DNA of 64,000 nt from NCBI RefSeq assembly GCF_033100135.1, contig NZ_CP136920.1, positions 744,001 to 808,000 of the forward strand, given 5' to 3'. The notes below the pieces were generated by a model. That model saw only the letters and a program-made list of their open reading frames with translations. It had not been told where the DNA came from and made no database searches. The position numbers and the translations under genes were made by a program. The stretch comes from Rubellicoccus peritrichatus (lineage in GTDB: Bacteria; Verrucomicrobiota; Verrucomicrobiia; Opitutales; Cerasicoccaceae). Below are positions 27,541 through 32,676 of this stretch, one piece after another. The stretch's first letter is position 1; every line of letters begins with the position of its first letter.

Positions 27541-28272
27541 CTACTGAGCCTTCTCTGACTGCTGGAAATCATCCAGTGTCGGCAGCTCGTCACCAAGAGA
27601 GATATCCCAAGGATCACTGCTGGCCACAGCTTCGCCACCACCGGCAGCAGCCCCTTCAGAAGACGAGGTAAGCTCCATGATGTGACGGGTAAGCTCACGA
27701 TCGATGTAGTTCTCAGCCCAGTATCCGTTACGAAGTTCGTAGTCGTCCGGCTCATAGCCGTATTTCTCAAGTACTTCCAAAATCACGGAAGAATCTGGAG
27801 TTCCACCAGTGGCACCGATCAAGCCCTTCTCCTCATGGACACGAATGCACTCATGAATGATGAAAGGAGGGAGCTTGTGCTCGTAGGATGGATGAATCTG
27901 GTGGTTCTTCGCCCAGCTTGACCATTTGTCCCGATCAATTGAGCGTTCGCTCTTGGTTAGAGCTTCCATGTAGTAGACGCGACGCTTCGAGGTCTTCGTA
28001 ACCAGGGCGACAAGCGACATACCATCCTGAGCGATTTCAAGCCAATCACGTGGACGAGGCTTATCGACAGGATTCCGCGTGCATGAGATGTCTTCAGGCG
28101 CTTCGATGAACTTGACACCCAATGCACGTGAAAACCTTGTTTCAGTTTTCGCGTCTTTGTCTAACGACAATTCGCCGCGTCGGATACGTTCATCGTGGAA
28201 TTTGGCAGCATCCTCTGGTGAATCTGCCCAAATGTAGCTGGTGAGTTGAGTAGCGACTTTATATTTTCTCAT
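27541..28272 (-). CDS. Unrecognised soluble protein, 243 residues
   Basis: No family is recognised. The ATG at 28272 is supported by AAGAGG nine bases upstream. The protein is hydrophilic with no signal peptide or membrane segment. It starts 'MRKYKVATQLTSYIWADSPED', which looks like a small beta-alpha unit in which 'W(A/S)DSPEDA' resembles segments of proteins that read gene-position or sensory data, but this is not diagnostic. It ends in a Ser/Gly/Ala-rich acidic tail ('SSSEGAAAGGGEAVASSDPWD') after a helical region. It has its own strong terminator and is divergent from the ParA gene cluster, with a 472-base region between them. A functional link is possible only by position. Confidence 0.75.
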   Translation of the reverse strand: MRKYKVATQLTSYIWADSPEDAAKFHDERIRRGELSLDKDAKTETRFSRALGVKFIEAPEDISCTRNPVDKPRPRDWLEIAQDGMSLVALVTKTSKRRVYYMEALTKSERSIDRDKWSSWAKNHQIHPSYEHKLPPFIIHECIRVHEEKGLIGATGGTPDSSVILEVLEKYGYEPDDYELRNGYWAENYIDRELTRHIMELTSSSEGAAAGGGEAVASSDPWDISLGDELPTLDDFQQSEKAQ

Positions 28273-28744: not shown

Positions 28745-29635
28745 ATGCCTCGAAAAATTTGCTTCATCAATTACAAAGGTGGCGTCGGTAAGACGTCACT
28801 AATCGTCAACACCGCCGCTAGTCTGGTCCAAAAAGGCAAGCGTGTCCTTTTGGTAGACCTGGATACCCAGTCCAACGCGAGTATCTGGCTTATGCGTCTG
28901 GACAGGTGGAATAAGCTAAATGTCACCGGCAAAGGCTCCATCTACTCGCTCTTCTTTCAAAGTGACGATAAGCTCAAAGATATTATTGTTAAAGATGTAG
29001 TTGAAGACAAAGCCGGCGCATCAATCCTGCCTGGTCTCGATATTGCACCGACTACCTTTAATCTGGTCGACCTGGAAAGCGAATATGATGAAGCGGAATC
29101 GAAGCCGCACTACCTCACTTTTTACGAACAAATTAAAGAGATTGAGAATGATTACGACTACATCCTCTTTGATTGCCCGCCTAACATCCTGAAAGCCTCC
29201 CAACTCGGGGTCTTCAGCGCTAATGAAATTTATGTTCCGGCCAACCCGGATGCACTAAGCCTAATCGGCTTCACTCTGCTCGTGGAAAAGCTGCTGTTAT
29301 TTCACAAACGTTCGGCCAGCTTCCGTCAGTCCGGCATGGGTGCTGCAGCAGCGGCAAAGGGTATTATTTTCAATTCCATTAAAGCAAATGTGGACATTGA
29401 AGTCCCTAAAATGCGCATGCAACTTCGCCTGAATCAATTCAGGAACCAAAAGCGTGTCCACCCTGCTGCTAAGATTTTCGAATCACAGATTCGTGATGCT
29501 ACTGTTGTTAGAAGAGCTGTTACGTTAGGGCTTCCAGTTGGCCTGGTTGGCCAGGTTGCCCAAGAAGAAGATAGTGTCGCTACAGATTATCGTAGATTAG
29601 CAACAGAGATTGACCGCCACACAGATATGATCTAA
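28745..29635 (+). CDS. Orphan ParA/MinD-family ATPase
   Basis: 296 residues. It has the deviant Walker A 'NYKGGVGKTS' (signature Lys11 and Lys16), Walker A' 'LLVDLDTQSNAS' and Walker B-like 'YDYILFDCPPN', so it should be a nucleotide-dependent dimer that binds DNA or membrane. No parB gene or HTH DNA-binding N-terminus is present, which sets it apart from chromosome ParA (Soj). It contains an insert 'VDLESEYDEAESKPHYLTFYEQ'. The next two genes follow at 26 and 19 bases. Such orphan ParAs usually position cargo (carboxysomes, chemoreceptors, plasmids); the cargo here is unknown. Confidence 0.9.
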   Translation: MPRKICFINYKGGVGKTSLIVNTAASLVQKGKRVLLVDLDTQSNASIWLMRLDRWNKLNVTGKGSIYSLFFQSDDKLKDIIVKDVVEDKAGASILPGLDIAPTTFNLVDLESEYDEAESKPHYLTFYEQIKEIENDYDYILFDCPPNILKASQLGVFSANEIYVPANPDALSLIGFTLLVEKLLLFHKRSASFRQSGMGAAAAAKGIIFNSIKANVDIEVPKMRMQLRLNQFRNQKRVHPAAKIFESQIRDATVVRRAVTLGLPVGLVGQVAQEEDSVATDYRRLATEIDRHTDMI

Positions 29636-29661
29636 TCTGGGCGGTCAAATAGAGATTCATC

Positions 29662-30627
29662 ATGCCAAAAGAAGCATCGACCGGCAAATATTCCGCAAGA
29701 GACTGGGACGAAACACGCCTGAAGTTTTCCACTTCCTTAATGGTCGATACATCATTGATCAGCCTGTCCCAAAATGCCGAATTGCGCGCATGGCCGATCA
29801 AAGGTGATAACGAAAACCCTTCCAAATATATCGACTTCAACTGGGAAGAGTTGAATGAGATTTCAGGTCTGGCAGACAACCCCAGAAACCTGGATCTACT
29901 TATCGACATCCTGAAAGAGACCATGTCCTTTGATGAACCATTTGGGGATATGGTCAGCACAGTGGAGGAGAACTCTGTCGATGATACCATCGAGAAGAAT
30001 CTCGAGAAACTCAAAATTCCAGAAGACTTCCCACTGCGACTCGGTTCAGTCTCGAAAGATACTCTGGAGTTCTGCAAAAGTGAAAAAATCGAGACCATTG
30101 GTGAATTTGCAGCCTTCTCCCAACGTGTTGCGCAGAACATCATTGTCGGTGGAGACTTCAAGGCACTACTCAATTGCCTGGTCCACTCGGATGAAAAAGG
30201 CATCGCCAAATTTTTACCTTTCAGACCCCACCATACGGGCCTTCATCTGGAGGAAGCAATGGGCATACTCATCTCACAATTGAGTGAGACCGAATTGATG
30301 TCTCTCCTCAAAAGGTATGGGCGGCATCTTTCAGACGAAGATTCCAAGAAAGCACGCCTTTCCAAAGATCAGGCCAAGCAGCTTGAGGATATCCTCCAAC
30401 AACGCACAGAAGAATTGGTCAAATTCTTTACGGATGACTATGCCACATTCCAGAAAAAGCTCAAGTCAGGCACGACAGCCGAACGCTTATTCATCGTGCT
30501 GAATGACGAGAATCGGGAAATCGTCTGTGCACAAACCCTAAAACGCTATTTGAAGGTCGATGTCGGTGGCGACATAAAGCCGGAAAAGAAGGGTGGTTTC
30601 TTCAAAAAGATATTTGGTCGCCGTTAA
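29662..30627 (+). CDS. Unrecognised protein in ParA cluster, 321 residues
   Basis: No family is recognised. It is soluble and acidic over most of its length. The segment 'LGSVSKDTLEFCKSEKIETI' followed by 'GEFAAF' looks like a helix-hairpin-helix of the kind in RNA polymerase alpha C-terminal domains; this is a weak resemblance. A second helical part (~195-265) has 'LSKDQAKQLEDILQQRTEELVKFF'. The tail 'KKGGFFKKIFGRR' is short, basic and aromatic, like an amphipathic membrane- or nucleic-acid-binding tip. Tight spacing between the ParA and coiled-coil genes suggests it works with them, perhaps as an adaptor. Confidence 0.8.
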   Translation: MPKEASTGKYSARDWDETRLKFSTSLMVDTSLISLSQNAELRAWPIKGDNENPSKYIDFNWEELNEISGLADNPRNLDLLIDILKETMSFDEPFGDMVSTVEENSVDDTIEKNLEKLKIPEDFPLRLGSVSKDTLEFCKSEKIETIGEFAAFSQRVAQNIIVGGDFKALLNCLVHSDEKGIAKFLPFRPHHTGLHLEEAMGILISQLSETELMSLLKRYGRHLSDEDSKKARLSKDQAKQLEDILQQRTEELVKFFTDDYATFQKKLKSGTTAERLFIVLNDENREIVCAQTLKRYLKVDVGGDIKPEKKGGFFKKIFGRR

Positions 30628-30646
30628 CCAATTCTCAACATAAAGT

Positions 30647-31276
30647 ATGGCGAAAGTCCCTATCCCGCCTAAGCGCAAACTCTCACTCAGACCTGAACAC
30701 CGTAAGGCAGCTGAGGTTTCTCTTGAGTCGCGAGACAAAATCAACGAATTTGTAAAAAGGACGAGAAATCCATTTGGAGAACCATTGCAGTTAAAAGCCA
30801 CAGATCTTGATGAGCTCGAAAGTAATCTGCGCGAGCTGGAAAAACAATTACTGCATCGCGAACGTGCTGTCCAAGATCTTGAAGCCAGTTTGGCAGAACG
30901 TGAACGCGTCGTTTGGGAAACTGAAGCACTGCTGACAGCAAGAGAAGCCCTGATGCAGGCCCAGGAAGAAAAGATTTCCAAAGAATCTGAAGCATCGCAA
31001 GGAACCCTTTCGCAGGCTGAACACGACGCCCTGCTCCAGCTCAAAACTGAAGTTGAAAAGCAGCAAAATAGCTTGGCCGAACAAAAACGTATCATCAAGG
31101 AACGCGAAGAGTTTCTCGATAAGAGCGAGAAAATGCTCTTTGAAAAAACCATGGATCAACAGGAACAGGAAACTCTGATTGAGCAGCGAATAGATGAGTT
31201 GAATGCCAGAGAACGTCGACTTGACGAAGCTGAGGGCAAGCCACCTCCTCCGGAAGAGCCCAAAGAAGTACTCTGA
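30647..31276 (+). CDS. Coiled-coil protein in ParA cluster, 209 residues
   Basis: The N-terminal ~50 residues are basic ('MAKVPIPPKRKLSLRPEHRK'). Residues ~54-195 are an almost unbroken coiled coil rich in Glu, Leu, Gln and Arg ('DELESNLRELEKQLLHRERA', 'IIKEREEFLDKSEKMLFEK', 'IDELNARERRLDEAEG'). The end is a proline-acidic tail 'KPPPPEEPKEVL'. No signal peptide or membrane helix is seen. It could be a scaffold or the partner that stimulates the ParA ATPase, since many ParA partners pair a basic N-terminus with a coiled coil. This is inferred from position and shape only. A 123-base gap follows before the nitroreductase gene. Confidence 0.82.
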   Translation: MAKVPIPPKRKLSLRPEHRKAAEVSLESRDKINEFVKRTRNPFGEPLQLKATDLDELESNLRELEKQLLHRERAVQDLEASLAERERVVWETEALLTAREALMQAQEEKISKESEASQGTLSQAEHDALLQLKTEVEKQQNSLAEQKRIIKEREEFLDKSEKMLFEKTMDQQEQETLIEQRIDELNARERRLDEAEGKPPPPEEPKEVL

Positions 31277-31399: not shown

Positions 31400-32020
31400 A
31401 TGGAAAATCCCATTAAACGCGCCGAACCTTCCCATTCCATCCTGCCTCAGCTAACCGAACGATACAGCCCCTATGTCTACGAGCCCAAGGCAGTCGAACA
31501 AGAGAAGCTACTGCGTATTCTCGAGGCAGCTCGATGGGCAGCATCCAGTTTCAATGAACAACCCTGGCGCTACATATTAGCCGAGCGAACGGATGAGACC
31601 GCCTTCGCCAACGCGCTAGAATGCCTCGTAGATGCCAATCAGGATTGGGCTAAGAATGCAGGAGCATTACTGCTCTGCTGCACTGGGAAAAACTTTAGCT
31701 ACAACAAAAAACCCAATCGCGTCAATGAACACGACCTGGGACTCGCAGGGGCAAATCTTACAATTCAAGCCGTTCATGAAGGACTACAAGTTCATATGAT
31801 GGGAGGCATCGTCCCCTCCAAAATCCGCCAGGTGTATAAAGTTCCGGAAGAGTTTGAACCGCTTACCGCTATAGCGATTGGCTATGCTGCCAAACCCGAC
31901 TCCGGGCATGTCGACCAAAGTATCGCTGATCGTGACACGACGAAACGCGAACGCCTACCACTTGGAGAATTTGTTTTCGGAACCACCTGGGGAGAATCTG
32001 CTGCCCAGGTTCAAAGCTAG
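31400..32020 (+). CDS. Nitroreductase-family flavoprotein
   Basis: 206 residues, normal for the family (PF00881). Visible features are the N-terminal FMN-binding 'RWAASSFNEQPWRYILAER', the central 'LLLCCTGKNF' strand, the helix 'HDLGLAGANLTIQAVHEGLQ' and 'GGIVPSKIRQVYKVPEEFEPLTAIAIGY'. Such enzymes reduce nitro, quinone or enone groups with NAD(P)H; the natural substrate is unknown. Cytoplasmic. It converges with the metallo-hydrolase gene 20 bases away. Confidence 0.93.
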   Translation: MENPIKRAEPSHSILPQLTERYSPYVYEPKAVEQEKLLRILEAARWAASSFNEQPWRYILAERTDETAFANALECLVDANQDWAKNAGALLLCCTGKNFSYNKKPNRVNEHDLGLAGANLTIQAVHEGLQVHMMGGIVPSKIRQVYKVPEEFEPLTAIAIGYAAKPDSGHVDQSIADRDTTKRERLPLGEFVFGTTWGESAAQVQS

Positions 32021-32040: not shown

Positions 32041-32676
32041 TCAACCCTGGACATACGGGTTACTTGCCTTTTCACGGGCAACTGTCGTTTCCGGGCCATG
32101 CCCGGGATAGAGCGTTGTTTCGTCAGGCAGGGTATAGATTTGCTCTTTAATTGATTTCTCGAGCACTTCAAAACTCCCCCCCGGAAGATCGGTTCGCCCT
32201 ACGCTACCAGCAAAAATAGCATCTCCGACAAAAGCACATTGCTCATCTGGCAGATAGATCACGATGTTACCTTCGGCATGACCAGGCACACGACGAATCT
32301 CTGCTGGTCGGCCGAGCAGCTCGAGAGACGAACCATCTTCCAGCCAAGTATCTATCGTTGGTTGAACAAACGGTGAATCCATTCCAAAAAATGTCATCTG
32401 CTGCGACAAGGCATCAAACATCAGCTTGTCCGCTTGATGCAGGCTAAGCGGAATCATGTTATCATTCAGTGTAGACGCACCAAGAACATGATCGAAATGG
32501 GCATGCGTTAGCACACAGGCTTCAAGTATCAAACTCTCTTCCTGCAGGATGGGAGATATCGTCTCCCAAACTCCCTGTGGAGCATCAATTAAAACTGCTT
32601 TGCCGCTAGAGGCGTCGGAAAGCAAAAATGCATTTGTCTGAACAGGAGGAAGTGGAAAACTGCGAATTTGAAGCAT
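32041..32676 (-). CDS. Metallo-beta-lactamase-fold hydrolase (glyoxalase II-like)
   Basis: 211 residues. The metal-binding motif HxHxDH is present as 'THAHFDH', with the later ligands in 'VPGHAEGN' (His), 'AFVGDAIFAG' (Asp) and 'LYPGHGPETTV' (His). Size and motif order match the glyoxalase-II-like hydroxyacylglutathione hydrolase subgroup that lacks the C-terminal substrate domain. It cleaves a thioester or similar bond, but the true substrate is not evident. 'GRTDLPGGS' is typical of this subgroup. It may form an operon with the upstream epimerase gene, 23 bases away on the same strand. Confidence 0.92.
   Translation of the reverse strand: MLQIRSFPLPPVQTNAFLLSDASSGKAVLIDAPQGVWETISPILQEESLILEACVLTHAHFDHVLGASTLNDNMIPLSLHQADKLMFDALSQQMTFFGMDSPFVQPTIDTWLEDGSSLELLGRPAEIRRVPGHAEGNIVIYLPDEQCAFVGDAIFAGSVGRTDLPGGSFEVLEKSIKEQIYTLPDETTLYPGHGPETTVAREKASNPYVQG

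Follow-up and report, generated by a model that had tools for sequence, protein, structure and literature searches.

A 64,000-nucleotide stretch of the Rubellicoccus peritrichatus genome (the window; positions 744001-808000 of a 5.8-Mb genome in one contig) carries three consecutive genes on the plus strand, which encode a ParA-type ATPase, a 321-residue protein that we named ADAP and a 209-residue coiled-coil protein that we named COIL, with intergenic gaps of 26 and 19 bases. We favor, with moderate confidence, the reading that this module is a self-organizing positioning system of the ParA/MinD kind, in which one partner would be an activator similar to PomX and the other a hub anchored in the membrane. 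An initial annotation, made from the DNA letters, had described the three genes as a cargo-positioning trio. Its coordinates of open reading frames (ORFs), both gaps, the Walker A sequence KGGVGKT and the ADAP tail KKGGFFKKIFGRR were all confirmed. The positioning idea is supported by the conservation of the ParA module, the lack of an adjacent parB and a fitting architecture; the roles of the partners, however, were reassigned, and the module appears to have more than three components. The features of the trio are as follows.

28745-29635, plus strand: ParA-type deviant Walker A ATPase, 296 amino acids, signature lysine kept
28775-28795, plus strand: KGGVGKT, the Walker A sequence of ParA
29662-30627, plus strand: ADAP, 321 amino acids, modeled as all-helical, without known family or fold match
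30586-30624, plus strand: C-terminal tail of ADAP, KKGGFFKKIFGRR, MinD-like, putative membrane anchor
30647-31276, plus strand: COIL, 209 amino acids, basic N-terminus followed by coiled coil, candidate ATPase activator and scaffold
30647-30781, plus strand: basic N-terminal segment of COIL, which includes PPKRKLSLR
31100-31189, plus strand: most conserved motif of COIL, EREEFLDKSEKMLFEKTMDQQEQETLIEQR, common to receiver-domain proteins and a WW-type protein

We looked for the three proteins in a sample of 132 order genomes, setting expect value (E) limits of E ≤ 1e-45 for ParA, chosen to exclude general ParAs, E ≤ 0.001 for ADAP and E ≤ 1e-8 for the COIL profile. ADAP was found in 41 genomes, in 27 of the 68 sampled genera, and as a single match in 35 of the 41. 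ParA was found in the identical set of 41 genomes, and the COIL profile matched 39 genomes, all of them within this set. Co-occurrence of all three genes in many genomes away from parB had been proposed as a check by the initial annotation, which had also named rare co-occurrence of the partners as a reason to abandon its idea; what we observed is that the three genes recur together, in a system larger than the trio of that annotation, which had overlooked the F238 and COIL-motif proteins described below. In a phylum sample of 387 genomes, the ADAP profile matched 41 genomes and ParA (E ≤ 1e-50) matched 43, with 40 shared, all in the same order. A first scan of genome contigs with a single ADAP sequence yielded no relative. 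One degenerate pattern, applied to a collection of 84,980 species, gave 84 ADAP relatives, of which 80 were kept, all belonging to Verrucomicrobiota or its subgroups; the named records include Cerasicoccus, Coraliomargarita, Opitutus, Lacunisphaera, Puniceicoccaceae, Opitutales, Opitutia and Verrucomicrobia. An ADAP frame was present at 77 of these 80 named loci, with ParA adjacent upstream at 70, COIL downstream at 62 and all three genes together at 60. Moreover, COIL lies apart from ParA-ADAP yet is retained in four genomes of family f11 (G033, G049, G090 and G112), and this retention without adjacency favors a functional tie over hitchhiking.

The ratio of nonsynonymous to synonymous substitution rates (dN/dS), limited to the computable pairs (dS of 1.0-2.7, near saturation, the remaining pairs being saturated), was 0.018-0.049 for ParA (4 pairs), 0.023 and 0.138 for ADAP, 0.027 and 0.261 for COIL and 0.025-0.137 for F238 (3 pairs). 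Across 71 loci, the ParA and ADAP trees had 39 of 68 splits in common, with a rank correlation of distances of 0.75, and ADAP diverged about 2.7× faster than ParA (mean distances of 2.25 versus 0.83). PomXYZ of Myxococcus xanthus is similar in these respects, as it is described to combine a ParA-type ATPase with two co-occurring partners, PomX and PomY, that diverge faster than PomZ (PMC7993993).

By its deviant Walker A motif, signature lysine and membership of the AAA_31 family (Pfam, 1.9e-34), the window ParA is classified with the ParA/MinD (A/D) ATPases, and the initial annotation was right, on KGGVGKT and this family match, to call it a full ATPase of that type. KGGxGKTS is conserved in 67 of the 69 ParA frames longer than 270 amino acids from the window and the 80 named loci. 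In the PDB it has a sequence match to Soj (5.2e-14), and PADLOC matches were restricted to the P-loop; among the 25 of 29 NCBIfam matches listed there was no Mcd model, although whether the library includes one was unchecked. The ATPase ends in TEIDRHTDMI and was found to lack the membrane-type tail that we looked for as a mark of MinD.

A PHROGs match of this ATPase, PHROG 164 (ParA-like partition protein, 7.6e-40), and its matches to NCBIfam partition models, at scores far below their cutoffs, would be expected of a DNA-partition system with an unrecognized centromere-binding protein, either a domesticated plasmid par or an auxiliary chromosome system, in which COIL or ADAP would be the ParB analogue. 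We consider such a system unlikely, as the surroundings of the trio argue against it: no parB adjoins the trio in its own genome, a search of its vicinity for centromere-like repeat arrays gave none, and parS-like sites in the window were at chance level (1 versus 0.78 expected). The initial annotation's statement that there is no parB is thus correct for the vicinity of the trio, and the parB and parS sites that it had named as counterevidence were not seen there. ADAP was unmatched in 72,556 plasmid records, has a membrane-type tail and mostly occurs once per genome, and its tree agrees in part with that of ParA. Furthermore, the Rubellicoccus genome also encodes a Soj-like ParA (L036:3273-4055) beside an RNase III-like gene at ~2.90 Mb (names assigned by eye) and a ParB (L207:991-2040) at ~4.84 Mb; chromosome segregation therefore has its own candidates. 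These two genes are not neighbors, as they lie ~1.9 Mb apart.

Neither ADAP nor COIL reached a curated cutoff in Pfam or NCBIfam or had any match at 0.001 in PADLOC or PHROGs, and the initial annotation's view of them as unrecognized families accordingly holds for the libraries searched. The best weak matches were an SMC-like coil model for COIL (0.002) and Tad5 (0.15) and LA_2219 (0.026) for ADAP. COIL has 12 K/R versus 6 D/E in residues 1-45, and no proline and 2 glycines in residues 50-197. The first 60 residues carry a net charge of at least +2 in 60 of 69 distinct COILs, and the N-termini of Opitutaceae-type COILs are proline rich, with an LPRR or KRKLSL-like element. According to PMC7993993, PomX combines a positively charged N-terminus with a Pro/Ala-rich stretch and with a coiled coil, and a positively charged N-terminus is reported as the common activating element of the otherwise diverse ParA/MinD partners (PMC7993993; PMC10241942). 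Because of this PomX-like layout, in which the likeness is one of layout only, COIL, rather than ADAP, is the likely activator of the ATPase.

ADAP was modeled with AlphaFold2 from 41 sequences. The model consists of helices only, at a mean predicted local distance difference test score (pLDDT) of 88.5, except that the last ~20 residues, which end in a conserved basic-aromatic tail, are of low confidence. A Foldseek search of the PDB with this model gave nothing below E 2.4, re-examination of the matches that Foldseek itself listed reached Z scores of at most 3.4, and none of the 41 ADAPs had a Pfam match at 0.01. We then compared the tails of 76 distinct ADAPs from the window and the named loci, excluding five loci whose frames were truncated or disrupted. 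In 67 of them, the last 20 residues have a net charge of at least +2 and the last 14 contain at least four bulky hydrophobic residues; a strict MinD-like tail pattern was matched by 44, and eight of the nine ADAPs that lack the charge and hydrophobic signature keep a hydrophobic tail with FG near the end. The resemblance is visible in the C-termini of Escherichia coli MinD (translated from the record), EEKKGFLKRLFGG, and of the window ADAP, PEKKGGFFKKIFGRR. This MinD-like tail gives ADAP the look of a hub anchored in the membrane, and we infer that the anchor sits on the partner and not on the ATPase. The initial annotation had given the 321-residue protein the role of adaptor; in our reading, the partner that likely activates the ATPase is COIL.

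The strongest block of COIL, ERExFLExSExxLFEKxQxQQExETELEQ, recurs in other proteins of module-bearing genomes. COIL-profile matches were read at 20 loci, with receiver and AAA+ domains identified by Pfam for four examples and by eye for the others: nine are receiver-domain proteins with a long coil, three are receiver-AAA+-coil proteins, three have a WWVAIDGEV-like N-terminus, one is a 522-residue protein without a Pfam match and four are nonadjacent COILs. The receiver-coil proteins carry a second, weaker copy of the motif at their end. Within the 132-genome sample, motif-bearing response regulators were confined to module genomes, and no COIL-profile match (1e-8) was found in the 91 order genomes without the module. 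This is a better control than a motif scan of 2.47 Mb of sequence, which was biased to module neighborhoods and gives no background rate. In that scan a loose pattern gave 140 matches in 84 distinct frames, all of which match the COIL profile (12 receiver proteins, 3 WW proteins, 58 COILs with the basic element and 11 others, which we read as COIL or diverged forms of it). In the window, the loose motif was found in COIL only, despite the presence of an SMC protein with long coils. At least one COIL-profile match beyond the trio-type COIL was present in 22 of the 41 module genomes, not all of these matches having been inspected, and a phosphorelay input to the module is possible.

The receiver proteins with a long coil are those at L250:3854-4951 (at ~1.296 Mb of the Rubellicoccus genome itself), L252, L254, L255, L256, L262, L263, L264 and L266, and NtrC-like receiver-AAA+ proteins ending in the COIL motif are found at L248:2057-3634, L249:3820-5397 and L261:4329-5915. 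The small proteins that join a WWVAIDGEV-like sequence to the COIL motif are at L251:4582-5349, L253:4037-4678 and L267:3848-4486; at L251 and L253 the gene comes after a tRNA thiouridylase-like gene (by eye).

In the mechanism that we propose, ATP-bound ParA dimers would occupy the nucleoid, as in other members of the family, and COIL would use its coiled coil to self-assemble into a cluster, as its PomX-like layout suggests. By the same likeness, the basic N-termini of COIL would bind ParA and stimulate its ATPase, such that the cluster follows, or centers itself in, the ParA gradient. The tail observed on ADAP would tie the cluster to the inner membrane, with ADAP also linking the cargo, and the proteins that share the motif and co-occur with the module, including response regulators, may join or control the cluster via the same coiled-coil interface. 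A bolder form of this idea, which we regard as conceivable though doubtful, is a new class of ParA positioning system: a MinD-type anchor was shifted from the ATPase to a partner of unrecognized fold, such that a cluster bound to the membrane is steered by the nucleoid gradient, and the docking motif ERExFLExSExxLFEK admits several clients, including phospho-regulated response regulators. If so, one ParA would serve many switchable cargoes or inputs.

Several observations weigh against this reading. Two of the 41 genomes, G002 and G022, had no COIL match; in G063 and G057 the COIL-profile matches are other COIL-motif proteins, the trio contig of G063 being short and the in-operon coil of G057 diverged. 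In the phylum sample, ADAP occurred without ParA in G470, and ParA (46-50% identical) without ADAP in G328, G393 and G440. An adjacent COIL was missing at 15 of the 77 named loci, some of them at contig ends. Seven named loci were without an adjacent ParA; one of these (L105) is at a contig end and two (L133 and L171) have overlong frames that overlap ParA, whereas the other four (L170, L175, L176 and L177), like L060, a locus additional to the seven, have ADAP and available flanks with no ParA match beside it. The tail is missing in one (second) group of ADAP paralogues (L063-L066) and in L068. With regard to COIL, the coiled-coil period was matched by only 1 of 1,000 shuffles (7 in a windowed test) when bulky hydrophobic residues alone were counted, a second choice of residues from which alanine had been dropped; with alanine counted it was not significant (221 shuffles, 165 windowed, family average 68), as in an earlier heptad test including alanine (441 of 2,000 shuffles). 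Of the coiled coil with a basic N-terminus seen in the initial annotation, the excess of basic residues and the proline-free stretch stand, but the period fails when alanine is counted. The N-termini of COILs came from mechanically called ORF starts, several of them clearly wrong; a narrow motif pattern was satisfied by just 53 of 69 COILs, and the coil protein adjoining ADAP begins acidic at L161 and L168. Finally, a search for cargo by neighborhood, in which 12 window ORFs were compared with the flanks of 111 other loci, revealed, apart from the trio itself, only F238 (14 loci) as recurring at more than two loci; the gene at 31400 was found at 2 loci and the gene at 32041 at 1.

The five loci with ADAP but no ParA match beside it are from Puniceicoccaceae-type genomes, L170 and L176 being from one genome. 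In one further genome (L241), both ParA and ADAP are fragmented, by decay of the module or by assembly errors.

Our best guess for the cargo is that the positioning module serves to place the division site or else an envelope machine, given the membrane-side location of its anchor and a MinC search that was positive in 6 of 14 control genomes but in 0 of the 132 order genomes; in an order without detected MinC, the module is a candidate for this task. The main text of PMC12283558 makes no mention of MinC or the Min system. Placement of an already known cargo, namely, bacterial microcompartments (BMC), chemoreceptor arrays or polyhydroxyalkanoate (PHA) granules, appears improbable. BMC shell genes are present in 36 of 41 module genomes compared to 19 of 91 others, raw counts that may reflect genome size and kinship, and the Rubellicoccus genome itself has BMC genes, at ~0.18 Mb and without a ParA match nearby. 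However, five module genomes lack a BMC match and 19 BMC genomes lack the module, and the BMC genes of the own genome are ~0.6 Mb away from the trio. CheW was detected in 21 of 41 module genomes and in 23 of 91 others, leaving 20 module genomes without it, and PhaC_N matches occurred in 2 of 132 genomes. BMC, CheW and PhaC were thus rejected as strict or obligatory cargo, as their presence does not strictly track the module. A spherical cell shape and lack of motility are described for Coraliomargarita akajimensis (PMC3035286), and another Coraliomargarita strain carries ParA-ADAP (L135), which speaks against flagella as a general cargo.

The ParA-like ATPase might instead regulate an envelope enzyme or a secretion process, as do BcsQ and TadZ, without moving cargo. 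In line with such a role, a 433-residue outer-membrane-like protein (by eye) recurs in 32 of 112 loci, drawn from overlapping sets of named and unnamed ones, and wherever it was mapped it comes after COIL on the same strand. In addition, three genomes of one genus have the receiver-AAA+-coil gene directly downstream of a PilC/GspF-like gene (by eye), which hints at pili or secretion for that lineage only. Such a role is nonetheless quite improbable for the module at large, given that neither neighbor was found near the window trio or, among the loci compared, outside the lineage that carries it, and that the 433-residue protein had no Pfam match at E ≤ 1. In many Opitutaceae-type loci (e.g., L115:9766-11067), this protein has a signal-like start and lies closely after COIL, with a TonB-like gene upstream. 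AlaS, LytB/IspH, the TonB-like gene and the 433-residue protein recur in loci of this type in what looks like local synteny, and they were set aside as cargo candidates.

A possible fourth component of the positioning module is encoded upstream of the trio.

27541-28272, minus strand: F238 family protein, 243 amino acids, divergent from the trio

The gene is 472 bases from ParA in the window, and F238 was found in 15 of 132 order genomes, all within the 41 module genomes. Its identity is 47-75% with 11 relatives and 38% with a twelfth, and no Pfam match was obtained for any of 13 members. At L063-L066, which are second copies in family f11, and at L067, F238 is directly upstream of ParA-ADAP and on the same strand. 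The structural model is poor (mean pLDDT of 65), with a conserved LPT(L/I/M)D motif at the C-terminus after a low-confidence linker; weak KOW/PWWP-like matches (best E of 0.085) suggest that the protein perhaps has a small SH3/KOW-like barrel.

ParA/MinD systems organize much of the bacterial cell interior, and their partners are described as so diverse that many such ATPases are called orphans (PMC10241942). The module adds a conserved orphan ParA whose partners can be delimited by their co-occurrence with it, and with candidate residues for each role, in the basic N-terminus, the membrane tail and the coil motif. Its resemblance to PomXYZ extends to the proline-rich N-terminal stretch of Opitutaceae-type COILs, for which PomX has a counterpart (PMC7993993); unlike in PomXYZ, the second partner has a MinD-like tail and no PDB fold match, and the coil motif is common to response regulators. 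With MinCDE the module has in common a ParA/MinD superfamily ATPase and a C-terminal tail of the same membrane-binding type, but the tail is on the partner and MinC, the Min partner searched, was not found in the order sample. The likeness to ParABS is limited to the ParA family and Walker motifs, as the locus has neither parB nor parS and the Soj-like ParA and ParB of the genome are encoded separately. Orphan systems such as that of ParC and its dedicated partner ParP, basic at the N-terminus, offer a further comparison. McdAB and PpfA/TlpT similarly have a ParA-like ATPase with a dedicated partner whose N-terminus is basic (PMC7993993, PMC10241942). In contrast to these, the partners in the module went unrecognized by the family libraries used, neither BMC nor CheW presence strictly tracks the module, and it is not in a carboxysome or BMC locus in its own genome, as McdAB would be. 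By the features tested, the module is thus neither ParABS nor MinCDE, nor BMC-located like McdAB. In the literature searched, mostly nonsubscription papers, no description of it was recognized by title or abstract start among the matches listed.

The GC content of the window is 45-53% in 2-kb steps. Further ParA paralogues, 43-57% identical and with no ADAP match alongside, were seen in several genomes of the order (L229-L237); their listed neighbors, such as a trehalose gene or CvfB-like and lipid genes (by eye), gave no hint of a cargo. The Rubellicoccus genome itself encodes a third ParA-like ATPase (L037:3353-4099), which adjoins CHAD- and CYTH-like genes (by eye).

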